Origin: a virus
Length of the DNA stretch: 28,868 nt
IMG/VR virus record: IMGVR_UViG_3300018481_000059
Coordinates: 1-28,868 of that record
Direction: 5' to 3' (one strand)
Shown here piece after piece: positions 10,833 through 19,303 of this stretch. The notes below the pieces were generated by a model. It was not told the origin of the DNA. It did no database searches and saw only the letters and a program-made list of their open reading frames with translations. Every line of letters starts with the position of its first letter. The stretch's first letter is position 1. The position numbers and the translations under genes are program-made.

Positions 10833-10848
10833 GAAGGAGACAGTCAAA

Positions 10849-12969
10849 ATGGGAGACATTGCAACTCTCAAGAAGGAAGCTGATTTCAGCGGTTGGGCGA
10901 CCAAGGCTGGTCTCCGGTGCAGTGATGGTCGAACCATCATGCCCGAGGCCTTTAAGCACATGGACGGTGAGCGAGTCCCACTTGTCTGGCAGCATGCTCA
11001 TGGTGAGCCAACCAATATTCTCGGTCACGCGATTCTTGAACATCGCGAGGGTGAGGGCGTTTACACCTATGCGTTTTTCAACGACACTCCTGGTGGACAG
11101 AACGCTAAGGCACTGGTTCAGCACAAGGACATCAACCACCTGTCTATTTTCGCTAACCGGTTGGTTGAGAAGAGCAAGCAGGTGTTCCATGGGATGATTC
11201 GGGAGGTTAGCCTGGTTCTCTCTGGAGCAAATCCTGGTGCAGTTATCGAGAACGTCGCGATTGCACATTCCGATGGCGACACGGAAATTCTGGATGATGA
11301 GGCGATTATTTACACCGACTACGAGCTTGAGGTGGATGACGACGTGACACACGCCGACACTGACACTGACACTGAAACTGACAACGACAATGTGACGCAT
11401 GCCGATGACGACGAAACTGTCGCCGATGTCTTCGACACGCTCAGTGAGAAGCAGAAGAACGTCGTTTATTTCATGATCGGTCAGGCCCTCGAGCAGGCCT
11501 CCGCCGAACACTCGGATAAGTCCGAGCCTATTGTGCACGCTGACGACGCAACGGTTAAGGAGATTTTCGATGCCTTTACCGAGCAGCAGAAGAACGTGGT
11601 TTATTTCATGATCGGCACCGCACTCGAGGATGCCGGTATGGAACAGTCCGATGATGATGAAAACGCCCTTGCACACCAGGATCAGGAAGGCACAAACATG
11701 ACTCGCAACGTCTTCGAGCAGGATGACACCAAGAACGGCGGCAAGGACACGCTTTCGCACGACGATCTCAAGAGCATCGTCGAGGAAGCTAAGAAGCCCG
11801 GTCAGACGCTCAAGTCGGCGTTCCTTGCGCACGCCGTTGAGTATGGTATCGAGAACATCGACTACCTGTTCCCGGACGCGAAGAGCATCACCAACACTCC
11901 CGAGCTTATTTCTCGTAGGCTGGAGTGGGTCAACATCGTGATGAACGGCGTTCGGAAGTCGCCATTCGCTCGAATCAAGTCTGTGTCGGCTGATATTACT
12001 CTCGAGTCGGCTCGTGCCAAGGGTTACGTCAAGGGCAACCTCAAGAAGGACGAGTGGTTCAAGCTCGAGCGGCGAATCACCACTCCTACCACAATCTACA
12101 AGAAGCAGAAGCTTGACCGCGATGACATCATCGACATCACGGATCTCGATGTCGTTGCGTTCCTCAAGGGTGAGATGCGGCTGATGCTGGACGAGGAAAT
12201 CGCTCGCGCGGTTCTCTTCGGCGATGGTCGTGAGGTCGATGACGAGGACAAGGTTGACGAGAACTGCATCCGTCCGATCGCTCACGATGATGATTTCTAC
12301 ACGCATCGTGTTGTTCTCCCTGCGAATGTCAGTGGAGATGTGCTCGTTGAGTCCATCCTCCGCGCTCGGCCGAAGTACCGTGGTTCGGGTCGTCCGACGC
12401 TGTTCCTCGTTGAGGATCTGCTGACCGACATGCTGCTCGGCAAGGACAAGATGGGTCGTCGTCTCTACAACAACGAGGCAGATCTTCAGAATGCTCTTCG
12501 CGTCGGTGCGATCGTTACGGTCGACGCTATGGAGGATCAGACCACTGATGGTGGAGATCTTCTCGCCGTTATGGTCAACCTCGCGGACTACACCGTTGGT
12601 GCGGACCGTGGTGGTAACGTGGCGATGTTCGATGACTTCGACATCGACTACAACCAGTACAAGTACCTGATCGAGACCCGCATGTCGGGTGCTCTGACTC
12701 GGTTCAAGTCGGCTCAGGCTTTCGTTCGAGCCGCTGGTACTTCGGTTACGCCCACGATCCCGACCTTCAACGCTAGCACTGGCGTTCTGACTGTTCCGAC
12801 CGTGACCGGTGTTTCGTACTACAACACCGAGGACGACACGGAATACTCGGCTGGCGCTCAGACTGCTATTGGTGCTGGTGAGTCTATCGAGGTTGAGGCT
12901 CGGCCTGACTCGGGTTACTACTTCCCGCACAACACCGACGCTGACTGGGACTTCACTCGTAACGCCTGA
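10849..12969 (+). CDS. Prohead protease - major capsid protein fusion, 706 aa
   Basis: ATG 10849 follows AAGGAGA. Residues 1-130 are an HK97-type S78 prohead protease: P-L-V-W-Q-H (His49), H-L-S-I-F-A (Ser99) and E-V-S-L-V-L-S-G-A-N-P-G-A. Residues 135-283 are a very acidic linker with two copies of a 45-residue-spaced unit (Q-K-N-V-V-Y-F-M-I-G) and several H-A-D motifs, probably the scaffolding (delta) region. From about residue 284 it is an HK97-fold capsid protein (R-R-L-E-W-V, E-E-I-A-R-A-V-L-F-G-D-G, R-A-R-P-K-Y-R-G-S-G-R-P-T-L-F). The last 65 residues look like a surface Ig-like domain ending in G-Y-Y-F-P and W-D-F. Codon use is the most biased in the window, as expected for the most abundant virion protein. 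An in-frame start at 11698 could make capsid protein alone. Confidence 0.9.
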   Translation: MGDIATLKKEADFSGWATKAGLRCSDGRTIMPEAFKHMDGERVPLVWQHAHGEPTNILGHAILEHREGEGVYTYAFFNDTPGGQNAKALVQHKDINHLSIFANRLVEKSKQVFHGMIREVSLVLSGANPGAVIENVAIAHSDGDTEILDDEAIIYTDYELEVDDDVTHADTDTDTETDNDNVTHADDDETVADVFDTLSEKQKNVVYFMIGQALEQASAEHSDKSEPIVHADDATVKEIFDAFTEQQKNVVYFMIGTALEDAGMEQSDDDENALAHQDQEGTNMTRNVFEQDDTKNGGKDTLSHDDLKSIVEEAKKPGQTLKSAFLAHAVEYGIENIDYLFPDAKSITNTPELISRRLEWVNIVMNGVRKSPFARIKSVSADITLESARAKGYVKGNLKKDEWFKLERRITTPTTIYKKQKLDRDDIIDITDLDVVAFLKGEMRLMLDEEIARAVLFGDGREVDDEDKVDENCIRPIAHDDDFYTHRVVLPANVSGDVLVESILRARPKYRGSGRPTLFLVEDLLTDMLLGKDKMGRRLYNNEADLQNALRVGAIVTVDAMEDQTTDGGDLLAVMVNLADYTVGADRGGNVAMFDDFDIDYNQYKYLIETRMSGALTRFKSAQAFVRAAGTSVTPTIPTFNASTGVLTVPTVTGVSYYNTEDDTEYSAGAQTAIGAGESIEVEARPDSGYYFPHNTDADWDFTRNA
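11446..11635 (+). repeat. Duplicated unit in the scaffold-like linker
   Basis: Two near-identical segments, 11446-11500 and 11581-11635, lie 135 bases (45 codons) apart. Both encode E-[KQ]-Q-K-N-V-V-Y-F-M-I-G-x-A-L-E, each introduced by an acidic stretch and T-V-x-[DE]-[VI]-F-D. This looks like an internal duplication of a helical scaffold element. Confidence 0.85.
11683..11700 (+). promoter_or_regulatory. Internal ribosome binding site with in-frame ATG 11698 at the capsid domain
   Basis: CAGGAAGG at 11683-11690 is followed seven bases later by ATG 11698, in frame with the fusion (residue 284) and exactly at the start of the capsid part (M-T-R-N-V-F). Initiation here would give a 423-aa capsid protein free of protease and linker. 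Confidence 0.5.
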
Positions 12970-12984
12970 TCAAAATAGGAGTGA

Positions 12985-13611: not shown

Positions 13612-14289
13612 ATGACTGCACCTGCTGCTGAAGTCGGTGTTATTTCCTGGGATCAGGTTGGCGAACGGTTCTATGAGACTGGCGTCGACAAGGGTGTTCT
13701 TTACATCCCGGATAACTCTGGCGTCTATGCAATGGGTTGGGCTTGGAATGGTCTGATTTCGGTTACCGAATCACCTTCTGGAGCCGAGTCCACCCCGCAG
13801 TATGCGGACAACATTAAGTACCTGAACCTGACGTCTGTCGAGGAGTTCGGCGGCACGATTGAGGCGTTCACGTACCCAGATGAGTTCGCATTCTGCGATG
13901 GTACTGCTGTTCCGGCTACTGGCGTCTTCCTGGGTCAGCAGGGTCGTCGGACATTCGGTCTGTCGTATCGGACTCGGAAGGGTAACGATGTCGACGGCAA
14001 CGACCTCGGTTACAAGCTGCATCTTGTTTACGGATGCAAGGCGTCTCCGTCGGAGAAGGCTTACTCGACGATCAACGACACGCCTGAGGCGCTGACCTTC
14101 AGTTGGGAATTCACCACGACTCCCGTTGCGGTTACCGATCACAAGCCGACTGCTAGCATCACGATCGATTCGACCAAGGTCGATGAGACGGATCTCGCTA
14201 CTCTGGAGACCGAACTGTACGGCGCTGTTGCGGCTGCTCCTAGCCTGCCTCTTCCGGACGAAGTTATCGCTATGTTCACTGCTCCCTGA
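13612..14289 (+). CDS. Major tail (tube) protein, 225 aa
   Basis: ATG 13612 follows GAAAGGACAAGT. It is the first of three paralogues: shared landmarks are G-E-R-F-Y-E-T-G-V-D-K-G-V-L-Y, W-N-G-L-I-S-V-T-E-S, F-G-L-S-Y-R-T, G-Y-K-L-H-L-V-Y and L-E-T-E-L-Y-G. Position after the tail terminator, C-ending biased codons like those of the capsid gene, and the following chaperone-like gene mark this copy as the abundant tail tube subunit, which stacks as hexamers around the tape measure protein. It ends in D-E-V-I-A-M-F without the extra C-terminal domain seen in the third copy. Confidence 0.85.
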   Translation: MTAPAAEVGVISWDQVGERFYETGVDKGVLYIPDNSGVYAMGWAWNGLISVTESPSGAESTPQYADNIKYLNLTSVEEFGGTIEAFTYPDEFAFCDGTAVPATGVFLGQQGRRTFGLSYRTRKGNDVDGNDLGYKLHLVYGCKASPSEKAYSTINDTPEALTFSWEFTTTPVAVTDHKPTASITIDSTKVDETDLATLETELYGAVAAAPSLPLPDEVIAMFTAP

Positions 14290-14299
14290 TCTAGGGACA

Positions 14300-14432
14300 T
14301 TTGAAAGGGAGGTCAGAGAATGCTCAAGATTTCGGTTCCATTGGCCGAAGGATTTGACGAAGCTACAAAACAGTTCGTTGATACTGAGACCTATGCTTTG
14401 GAGCTAGAGCACTCTCTGGCCTCCCTTTCAAA
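14300..14432 (+). promoter_or_regulatory. Long-range inverted repeat covering the chaperone RBS
   Basis: Bases 14300-14318 (TTTGAAAGGGAGGTCAGAG) are complementary to 14414-14432 (CTCTGGCCTCCCTTTCAAA) over all 19 positions, counting one G-U pair. The left arm contains the ribosome binding site AAAGGGAGG and ends next to ATG 14320; the right arm lies within the coding sequence 95 bases further. Pairing would hide the start. A short competing hairpin (CTCCC 14421-14425 with GGGAG 14435-14439) is also possible. Confidence 0.7.
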
Positions 14433-14859
14433 ATGGGAGTCACGAGAAGAGAAAGCGTTCCTTGGTAAAGAAGAGAAGACTAATGAACAGGTACTTCGCT
14501 ACATCAAGGACATGACTCTCACCTCTGATGTTCCCTGGGAGATTTACCTTAGGCTTTCTCCCGAAAACATCCAGCAGATCAATGCTTATATTAATGCCAA
14601 ACAGACCGCGACTTGGTTCAATGATCAGCGCACACGTCCTAGTCGAGAGATCATTACAGCCGAGCTTATTTACTATTGGATGGTTTCACTTCAAATTCCA
14701 TTTGAATGTCAATACTGGCATTTGAATCGGTTGATCACTCTTGTCCGGGTTTGTAACGAAAAGAACCAGCCTTCGAAGAAGATGAGCAGATCGGATGCTG
14801 CACGTCGACAGAGGGAACTGAACGCACAACGTCGAGCAAACATGGGCACTCGAGGCTGA
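14320..14859 (+). CDS. Tail assembly chaperone-like protein, 179 aa
   Basis: ATG 14320 with AAAGGGAGG upstream, which lies inside a 19-bp inverted repeat. Landmarks: [14 protein letters not shown] at about residues 27-40, a helical centre, and [25 protein letters not shown] near 125-148, then a basic C-terminus ([11 protein letters not shown]). I recall this W-H-L-N-R-L-x-T-L-I-R-V-C pattern from proteins encoded just after the major tail protein in actinophages and annotated as tail assembly chaperones. Usually a frameshifted longer form is made; here a major-tail paralogue follows after only 13 bases and no slippery site is obvious. Function by position and pattern. Confidence 0.68.
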
Positions 14860-14872
14860 GAGGAGGAACGAC

Positions 14873-15574
14873 GTGACACGATTGAACTGGGATGCTGTTG
14901 GTGAACGATTCTACGAAGCTGGAGTTGATCGAGGCGTTCTATATCTTAATGGCATTGGTTATGCTTGGCCTGGATTGATTTCTGTTGCCGAGTCCTCTTC
15001 TGGTGGAGAAGCCAAGCCGCACTACATCGATGGTTATAAGTATGTAAACATTGCAGTAGCAGAAGAGTTTCAAGCAACGATCAGCGCATTTTCTAGTCCT
15101 CCAGAGTTTGCTGTTTGTGATGGAATGGGGCTTGTGCATACTGGACTCATTGCCACGCAGCAACGGAGACGACCTTTCAGTTTCTCATATCGAACACTGA
15201 TCGGTAATGACATTGAGGGCATTGACCACGGATACAAGATTCATCTGGTTTACAACGCACTGGCTGCCCCGTCCAGCCGAACGAACAATACTATCAGTCA
15301 GAGTGCTGTGCCCGGAACATTGAGCTGGGCGATTACAACGCTGGCTCCTAGAGTTCTGGGCATTCGACCGACAGCGCACTTTATCATTGACAGTCGAACT
15401 ACTGTTGAAGCGACACTGGCAGCTGTTGAAGATATTCTCTATGGCTCAGATGAACTTACACCGTCGATTCCGACTGTTACCGAATTGATGACTTTGTTTG
15501 GTGAGACCGTCATGGAAGGCGGATTCGCTGAGCTTTCTGGATTTGACACAATTCTCGATGGAGGTGGGGCCTGA
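14873..15574 (+). CDS. Major tail protein paralogue 2, 233 aa
   Basis: GTG 14873 behind AGAGGAGG. Starts L-N-W-D-A-V-G-E-R-F-Y-E-A-G-V-D-R-G-V-L-Y, matching the first tail protein, and shares W-P-G-L-I-S-V-A-E-S-S-S-G, F-S-Y-R-T-L-I-G-N-D, G-Y-K-I-H-L-V-Y-N-A-L-A and the E-D-I-L-Y-G segment. It has a Gly-rich C-terminal extension (G-F-A-E-L-S-G-F-D-T-I-L-D-G-G). Codon use is less biased than in the first copy, which argues for lower expression. Inference: a minor tail tube subunit, a tail-tip ring or a decoration variant. It ends in TGATGG, overlapping the fibre gene by one base. Confidence 0.78.
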   Translation: MTRLNWDAVGERFYEAGVDRGVLYLNGIGYAWPGLISVAESSSGGEAKPHYIDGYKYVNIAVAEEFQATISAFSSPPEFAVCDGMGLVHTGLIATQQRRRPFSFSYRTLIGNDIEGIDHGYKIHLVYNALAAPSSRTNNTISQSAVPGTLSWAITTLAPRVLGIRPTAHFIIDSRTTVEATLAAVEDILYGSDELTPSIPTVTELMTLFGETVMEGGFAELSGFDTILDGGGA

Positions 15575-16254
15575 TGGGGTATCGTTTTTTACAACGACGA
15601 GCTACTACTTCCGAATGGGCTGCTGTTAACCCCATTCTAGGTCCTGCTGAATTCGGAATTGAGGAAGATACCGATATTATCAAGATTGGTGATGGTGTTA
15701 CTGCATGGCTAGATCTCGATCCAGCATTTGAAGGAGCATTTCTTCCAATTGGCGGTAAAGCTGCCGATTCTGATAAGCTTGATGGAATCGATGCGAGCGG
15801 GTTTCTTCCAGTGGGTGGAAAAGCTGCTGATTCTGAGCTTCTAGATGGACTTGAATCGACGGCATTTGTTCAGGTCTCAGACACCGGTTGGGTTACCACT
15901 GGTTTGTCGTTTTCCCCCATTACTAACTGGACGGTTAACTCGTACAAGTTGCGTAAGATTAATAATCGTGTACGTGGGGTTATTGATGTTACATATTCAG
16001 GATCTACTCTGACTGCGGGTGCTGATGGAAATCTCGCTGATGTGAACGGCTTTATTACTATGCCTTCCGGTTGGAGAATTACAAACGGATATACCAATTT
16101 GCTTCCTCTTTGGCGGGCTGGATACACTCCGCTTTGGGGACGAGCAGTTAATGGTAACGTCGGCACAATCGATTTGGTTGCCGGAAGCTTTAACGCACAA
16201 ACACTTACGGCGGCTACTCCGCTGTCCGTTCTTATAGATTATTTGATTGATTAG
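15574..16254 (+). CDS. Tail fibre / receptor-binding protein with Mtd-type N-terminus, 226 aa
   Basis: ATG 15574 overlaps the preceding stop; GATGGAGGTGGGG is the ribosome binding site. Residues 5-48 (Q-R-R-A-T-T-S-E-W, L-G-P-A-E-F-G-I-E-E-D-T, I-K-I-G-D-G-V-T-A-W-L-D-L) match the major tropism determinant N-terminal domain that joins fibres to the tail. Two spacer repeats follow, each F-L-P-[IV]-G-G-K-A-A-D-S with L-D-G (about 55-95), a pattern common in phage fibres. The C-terminal 120 residues are beta-rich and are the likely receptor-binding head. Placing it between two tail tube paralogues is unusual. Confidence 0.75.
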   Translation: MGYRFLQRRATTSEWAAVNPILGPAEFGIEEDTDIIKIGDGVTAWLDLDPAFEGAFLPIGGKAADSDKLDGIDASGFLPVGGKAADSELLDGLESTAFVQVSDTGWVTTGLSFSPITNWTVNSYKLRKINNRVRGVIDVTYSGSTLTAGADGNLADVNGFITMPSGWRITNGYTNLLPLWRAGYTPLWGRAVNGNVGTIDLVAGSFNAQTLTAATPLSVLIDYLID

Positions 16255-18916: not shown

Positions 18917-19303
18917 TTGATTGTCAGTTTTACTCACCGTGGCTCCTTCGACAAATCAGAGAAGTTTCTGAATGCGATGAAGAACTATGACACCATGGTT
19001 CGAGGAATCGTAGAGCATAATGCTCAACGTGGTGTTGAAGCTCTTAGGAGAGCGACTCCAAAAGATTCACGTTTGGCTGCCGAATCTTGGGGTTACGAGA
19101 TCCGTCAAAATAGGAGAGGCGTGATCATTGCCTGGACAAACATTGACATTGAAAACGGTTTCCCAGTTGCGGTGGCCTTGCAAGTTGGCTATGGAACTGG
19201 CACTGGAGGATTTGTCCAGGGTCGCGATTACATCAATCCGGCAATGCTACCCATATTTGAAGACATCTCTGCGGAAGTCTGGAAGGCGGTGAAATCGGCA
19301 TGA
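18917..19303 (+). CDS. HK97 gp10-like tail completion protein, 128 aa
   Basis: TTG 18917 is preferred: AAAGGAG at 18905-18911 would lie inside the protein if the TTG at 18902 were used. The pattern V-R-G-I-V-E-H-N-A-Q-R-G-V-E-A-L-R-R-A-T-P-K-D-S-x-x-A-A-E-S-W, a basic strand, then G-Y-G-T-G-T-G-G-F-V-Q-G-R-D-Y-I-N-P-A and a final helix matches the HK97 gp10-like family (tail completion / head-tail joining). In most phages this gene sits between capsid and major tail genes; here it is about 5 kb downstream of that spot, directly before the tape measure gene, with which it overlaps by ATGA. Confidence 0.74.
   Translation: MIVSFTHRGSFDKSEKFLNAMKNYDTMVRGIVEHNAQRGVEALRRATPKDSRLAAESWGYEIRQNRRGVIIAWTNIDIENGFPVAVALQVGYGTGTGGFVQGRDYINPAMLPIFEDISAEVWKAVKSA

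Follow-up and report, generated by a model that had tools for sequence, protein, structure and literature searches.

Tail assembly chaperones of tailed phages are usually encoded between the major tail protein and tape measure genes. In many of these phages their dosage is partly set by frameshifting, and the lambda G/GT chaperones are made by a programmed -1 frameshift. According to Vladimirov et al. (2022), as cited in PMC12859696, the chaperones of T4-like phages rely on a mechanism other than frameshifting. The same genome paper, of January 2026, could assign no chaperone gene in cluster DJ Gordonia phages, where the sole candidate was a gene between two major tail genes that had no slippery sequence (PMC12859696). 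In RNA phages, the Shine-Dalgarno (SD) sequences of the MS2 A-protein and Qbeta A2 maturation cistrons are sequestered by long-distance pairing, and only nascent RNA is translated, while the ribosome binding site (RBS) of the MS2 lysis gene is masked by a hairpin that terminating upstream ribosomes open (PMC6071253).

We analyzed a viral stretch of 28,868 nt (IMGVR_UViG_3300018481_000059, hereafter the window) in which a long inverted repeat overlies the start of a gene placed like the cluster DJ candidate. The features of the locus are as follows.

13612-14289, plus strand: major tail protein gene (phrog_2645, E 8.8e-104); its TGA stop at 14287-14289 ends 30 nt before the start at 14320
14300-14328, plus strand: left arm of the helix, with SD, start codon and codon 2 (inverted repeat; covariation in 59-78 relatives)
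14307-14312, plus strand: SD sequence GGGAGG within the left arm (from sequence; mean predicted pairing 0.88 in 78 relatives)
14320-14322, plus strand: start codon of the candidate chaperone gene, within the helix
14320-14859, plus strand: candidate tail assembly chaperone gene, 179 aa (phrog_4338, unknown function, E 4.2e-75)
14329-14403, plus strand: coding loop of 75 nt, with no strong synonymous constraint (per-codon z <5)
14404-14432, plus strand: right arm, codons 29-38 (inverted repeat; synonymous constraint at codons 30-37)
14428-14439, plus strand: TCAAAATGGGAG, an invariant sense-strand motif overlapping the outer end of the right arm (codon constraint; repeats)
14873-15574, plus strand: second major-tail-protein-like gene, after the candidate chaperone gene (phrog_2645, E 5.9e-88)

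The 179-aa protein had no match in Pfam. Its AlphaFold model (pLDDT 88.9) had no match in the PDB; in a viral fold library, the best named match outside its own family was a Paenibacillus phage tail assembly protein, which was weak (E 0.036, probability 0.89). Most named relatives share the order major tail gene, candidate chaperone gene and second major-tail-like gene, and in actinophages the candidate directly follows the major tail gene. In the Faecalibacterium phage FP_oengus, an annotated HK97-gp10-like gene comes directly after the homologue, with the tape measure gene next, and BitterVaud1 and P1046 (Bifidobacterium and Lactococcus phages) have the same layout. Synteny and the weak fold match suggest that the product of the gene at 14320 is likely a tail assembly chaperone, and PMC12859696 independently singles out the same gene as the candidate. 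The window carries three phrog_2645 major-tail-protein paralogues in one phage (13612-14289, 14873-15574 and 16263-16970).

If this gene is a chaperone gene, it lacks the lambda arrangement. No overlapping or alternative-frame extension ORF was found at the gene, and a frameshift at its only A-rich site, TCAAAATGG, would enter frames of no conserved length; in the 78 relatives described below, the alternative frames downstream of codon 38 differ in where they stop. A programmed -1 frameshift of the G/GT type was therefore rejected, there being no overlapping -1 ORF, no conservation of frames and, according to PMC12859696, no slippery sequence. The helix may stand in place of the frameshift used by other phages.

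The first-pass annotation had reported 19 paired positions with one G-U, the left arm holding the RBS and the right arm lying inside the coding sequence. Exactly this pairing was found between 14300-14318 (TTTGAAAGGGAGGTCAGAG) and 14414-14432 (CTCTGGCCTCCCTTTCAAA), with the SD sequence and start codon on the left arm and the right arm inside the gene at 14320. The helix is in fact longer. The 14319-14413 pair extends it to 20 contiguous pairs (14300-14319 with 14413-14432, one G-U), and after an A.C mismatch at the A of the window's ATG, 5 more pairs follow (14321-14325 with 14407-14411). A repeat finder delimited the arms as 14300-14328 and 14404-14432, each of 29 nt, 90% complementary, with 26 Watson-Crick pairs and a 75-nt loop, making this the longest inverted repeat of the window at a spacing of <300 nt. 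Folding gave -63 kcal/mol, compared with -43.0 +/- 4.1 kcal/mol for 200 dinucleotide shuffles (z -4.8), none of which was as good (0/200). When each of 31 starts in the window was compared with the first 220 nt of its own gene, only the gene at 14320 contained a 20-nt complement to its RBS (dG -45.9); the second by dG reached -34.6 with 11 contiguous nt, and the other 30 starts had at most 14 contiguous complementary positions in the early coding region. Synonymous recoding of the window's right arm produced an equally good pairing in 1 of 500 cases. Rfam covariance models had no match in the window, nor around the helix at a relaxed E-value.

Two further features were recorded elsewhere in the window. 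Inside the Dit gene lies an inverted repeat of 19 perfectly matched bp that encloses a second stem (24976-24994/25035-25053, -51 kcal/mol); the repeat is absent at the same place in the two relatives checked, the Streptomyces phages Scarif and RosaAsantewaa. Between 1639 and 9521, at least seven neighbouring ORFs share a short tag, HYGVxGMKWGxR, near their N-termini, the ORF at 1639 having two; the tag resembles a common signal for targeting or processing.

Homologues of the protein encoded at 14320 were collected from 240 phage records and 181 IMG/VR stretches. Removal of near duplicates and exclusion of the Clostridia/Lactococcus/Faecalibacterium group gave 78 loci, from phages of seven actinobacterial host genera and from soil phages. 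All 78 keep the helix in the same register, and all are predicted to fold with most of the SD sequence and start codon inside it (mean pairing 0.88 and 0.95, respectively). Over the 14 positions from -8 to +6, a non-standard pair occurs in only 0-6 of the 78 loci, except at the start-codon base, where there are 12 mismatches. In an alignment of 59 sequences, 95.1% of the cells of an 18-pair structure are paired, versus 35-53% when the partner is slid, and RNAalifold recovers the helix de novo, also from the extended alignment. The loci's own arms pair at -38.3 kcal/mol, versus -31.5 kcal/mol for swapped arms. In Gordonia and Rhodococcus phages the helix is retained but built from another sequence (TTAAGG/CCTTAG), and it is still present in those Arthrobacter phages from which the second major tail gene is absent.

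Covariation in relatives, which the first-pass annotation had named beforehand as a check and whose absence it had counted towards refutation, was present. The start codon and the His31 codon combine as ATG-CAT in 39 loci, GTG-CAC in 27, ATG-CAC in 9 and GTG-CAT in none (Fisher p 5e-13). The start-codon base changed about 15 times on the protein tree, and path-disjoint contrasts on that tree were concordant in about 11 cases with 0 against at this base (+1, p 0.001), 8.5:0 at position -3 and 7:0 at position -6. On strongly supported branches alone, 3 independent +1 contrasts remained, all concordant, which are too few for significance. Cells with changes on both sides numbered 67 in the 59-sequence alignment, versus 22.4 in shuffles (0/500). 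Synonymous constraint on the right arm covers codons 30-37, with z up to 11, except at the codon of His31, which covaries with the start.

The complementarity could, in principle, be a by-product of the protein motif EHSLVSLS, whose codons would happen to complement SD plus ATG, the pairing itself being unselected. Part of it does arise in this way, since recoded arms still reach about -22 kcal/mol and His CAT complements ATG by chance. However, recoding the right arm synonymously at the 78 loci weakened the pairing from -38.0 to -22.1 kcal/mol (mean z -2.9), an average cost of 16 kcal/mol. Clostridia and Lactococcus relatives, despite a much-alike protein motif, show no excess of pairing (z -0.4 to +2.1); the Faecalibacterium phage gave z -2.6 and the Bifidobacterium phage a weak -1.3. 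Recoding, covariation, synonymous constraint and this outgroup together led us to reject the by-product explanation, to which we give practically no credence. The helix is selected as a pairing, and the original observation is confirmed, more strongly than it was first claimed.

A second, smaller peak of synonymous constraint was seen further into the gene, at 14530-14544 (codons 71-75, GTT CCT CCG GAG). Many relatives carry a palindrome, CCTCCGGAGG, with anti-SD and SD halves in this region.

A selected duplex of this kind might also be a processing site. RNase III could cut it, separating the major tail mRNA from the downstream tail genes; the message for the candidate chaperone would be destroyed, either incidentally or as the regulatory step. 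The length and perfection of the duplex, about 20 bp and near perfect here and roughly 17-25 bp in relatives, fit a double-strand cutter, and the helix lies where the major tail gene, expected to be highly expressed, ends. For such an enzyme, however, any position of the duplex would do, yet the helix stays across SD, start and codon 2 (CTC, synonymous constraint z 9.8), and a cut in the right arm would wreck the coding sequence in all phages. We consider cleavage unlikely as the function of the helix.

Folding in the window and in the 78 relatives bore out the earlier claim that the helix covers the RBS, and extended it to the start codon. The predicted cost of opening the RBS was 23.1 +/- 4.8 kcal/mol with the right arm and 6.5 kcal/mol without it; for the window itself the values were 23.2 and 5.4 kcal/mol. 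At the starts of the major tail, second major tail and capsid-region genes, the opening cost was 3.6-5.3 kcal/mol. Equilibrium folding of growing transcripts lowered the probability that the RBS is unpaired from 0.42 to 0.05 at +105. The next strongest start masking in the window was seen at 15574-16254 (opening 18.1 kcal/mol, dG -34.6, 11 contiguous positions).

We propose, with a probability of about 0.68, that this is a cis-acting helix that hides the start, limits initiation to nascent RNA and holds the chaperone at a low level compared with the major tail protein. On the full-length late mRNA, the SD sequence, start codon and codon 2 would pair with codons 29-38, hiding the start from 30S ribosomes, and because opening the site is predicted to take about 23 kcal/mol, ribosomes would rarely initiate once the mRNA was complete. 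The start would be open only on nascent RNA, until about 105 nt of the gene had been transcribed, or, alternatively, while translating ribosomes held the right arm apart. Each late transcript would then yield few copies of the candidate chaperone, whereas nothing would hold back translation of the major tail gene immediately before it in the same message. The helix very likely has a regulatory effect and probably keeps the candidate chaperone protein scarce; the first-pass annotation's proposals that it represses initiation and sets the ratio of this protein to the major tail protein are plausible.

Two routes of release suggested by the first-pass annotation fared less well. The first was opening by ribosomes arriving from upstream. 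Annotated upstream stops in the relatives lie 15-42 nt before the start, short of the helix core (annotated stops only were used, as automatic stop detection gave false positives at some loci). Ribosomes would thus halt before the core, and terminating ribosomes would not sweep the helix open, which argues against simple coupling and leaves this claim weak; a partial invasion of the outer pairs by terminating ribosomes is possible. The second was a competing small hairpin (CTCCC 14421-14425/GGGAG 14435-14439). It is not supported: in 19 of 59 relatives its fourth pair is broken, covariation is absent, and its GGGAG half owes its conservation to another repeated motif, to which it belongs.

These results bear on the idea that the helix is the OFF state of a ligand- or protein-operated switch, which an alternative hairpin or a factor from phage or host would open late in infection. 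So strong a sequestration invites controlled release, and TCAAAATGGGAG is conserved at the outer end of the helix in almost all relatives. However, the proposed alternative hairpin is not conserved; a search of the extended alignment with RNAalifold found no second conserved structure competing with the arms; and many copies of TCAAAATGGGAG elsewhere have no helix beside them, while the motif can lie 12 nt further away from an unmoved helix. A switch thus also appears unlikely, if anything slightly more so than cleavage by RNase III.

Synonymous constraint peaks again just past the arm, at Ser37 (TCA in 76/77) and Lys38 (AAA in 78/78), that is, in TCAAAATGGGAG. The helix does not explain this constraint, because the AAAA of the motif is mostly unpaired in predicted folds and because in the relatives L153, L165 and L189 the motif lies 12 nt further on with the helix unmoved. 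A role for the motif as part of the helix or of a pseudoknot was rejected, since these bases have no stable partner and the motif is separable from the helix. Its copies in the window are as follows.

10844-10855, plus strand: the second exact match to TCAAAATGGGAG, spanning the start codon of the capsid-region gene at 10849
761-772, 10844-10855, 12970-12981, 14428-14439 and 19105-19116, all plus strand: copies of the TCAAAATRGGAG/C motif

In 20 whole phage genomes, GTCAAAATGGGAG with at most 1 mismatch occurred 52 times on the forward strand and 0 times on the reverse, and a reversed control gave 0. A looser pattern, with IMG contigs included, showed the same bias (43 extra copies on the same strand versus 3 on the opposite one). 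ReqiPoco6 carries eight copies about 2-7 kb apart through its late genes, both between and inside genes. Nearly all relatives checked encode a phrog_4291 protein of about 910 aa (for example, L143:1908-4634 and L144:1306-4023) that matches an RNA polymerase family at 1090-1381 bits and is labelled 'HTH protein' or 'structural protein' in public records. This protein has been noted as similar to the Lactococcus phage 1706 gp75 structural protein, and the polymerase is therefore possibly carried in the virion.

The late RNA polymerase of SPbeta, YonO, is a polymerase whose own promoter sequence is reported as undetermined (PMC5467207). The phrog_4291 polymerase of the relatives is a single-chain enzyme that we take to be of the same broad type, a comparison that bears on the neighbouring motif and not on the helix. 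TCAAAATGGGAG is a candidate promoter of the YonO-type polymerase, which is our leading guess, or another strand-specific signal. Upstream of yonK and in the YonO start region of SPbeta, no copy of the motif closer than 3 mismatches was found. A T7-type polymerase was set aside as the reader of the motif (PF00940 in 0/20 genomes), but control genomes gave no match either.

With a promoter in mind, the helix could be a hairpin at which the phage RNA polymerase terminates or pauses ahead of an internal promoter at TCAAAATGGGAG. The motif is repeated, sense-only and immediately 3' to the helix, and relatives have a gene for a YonO-type polymerase. However, the stem has no U-run, AAAATGGGAG coming next in nearly all relatives; the other motif copies have no conserved hairpin upstream; and covariation with the identity of the start codon would be left unexplained. 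We regard this reading as very improbable. A broader proposal is that a chaperone made without a frameshift is initiated only on nascent late mRNA from the YonO-type polymerase, with TCAAAATGGGAG as its promoter. As far as we could find, TCAAAATGGGAG would be the first promoter sequence put forward for this class of polymerase in actinophages, and we offer the proposal tentatively, as a doubtful extension of the start-hiding model.

To return to that model, in which the helix restricts initiation of the candidate chaperone, its closest counterpart is maturation control in MS2 and Qbeta. There, too, the SD sequence is sequestered in the finished RNA, the start is open until the complement is made, and one protein is kept scarce. 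The present locus differs in that the RNA would be the late mRNA of a dsDNA phage, the complement lies downstream in the same gene (codons 29-38), the start codon and codon 2 are paired as well, and the nascent-only window is a prediction. As with the MS2 lysis hairpin, an RBS is masked beside an upstream structural gene and the product is low, here by prediction; unlike it, the gene does not overlap the upstream gene, which ends 15-42 nt ahead of the start codon without reaching the core of the helix. The candidate shares with lambda G/GT a suspected role in assembly and the need for expression scaled to the tail proteins; in place of an overlapping second ORF or a conserved slippery site, control would act at initiation. 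With the T4-like chaperones, as far as the citing paper describes them, it shares the absence of a frameshift. Among openly accessible papers, we found none that joined chaperone, RBS and hairpin. To our knowledge, no helix of the present kind is known in T4-like phages.

The helix is thus a known kind of control, an RBS-sequestering mRNA helix, in a new place. It is a conserved control element for the gene between two major tail genes, across seven host genera. The annotation question left open for cluster DJ (PMC12859696) becomes testable by mutation of the two arms. If the proposed mechanism is true, the helix would be the dsDNA-phage counterpart of the maturation switch of RNA phages.
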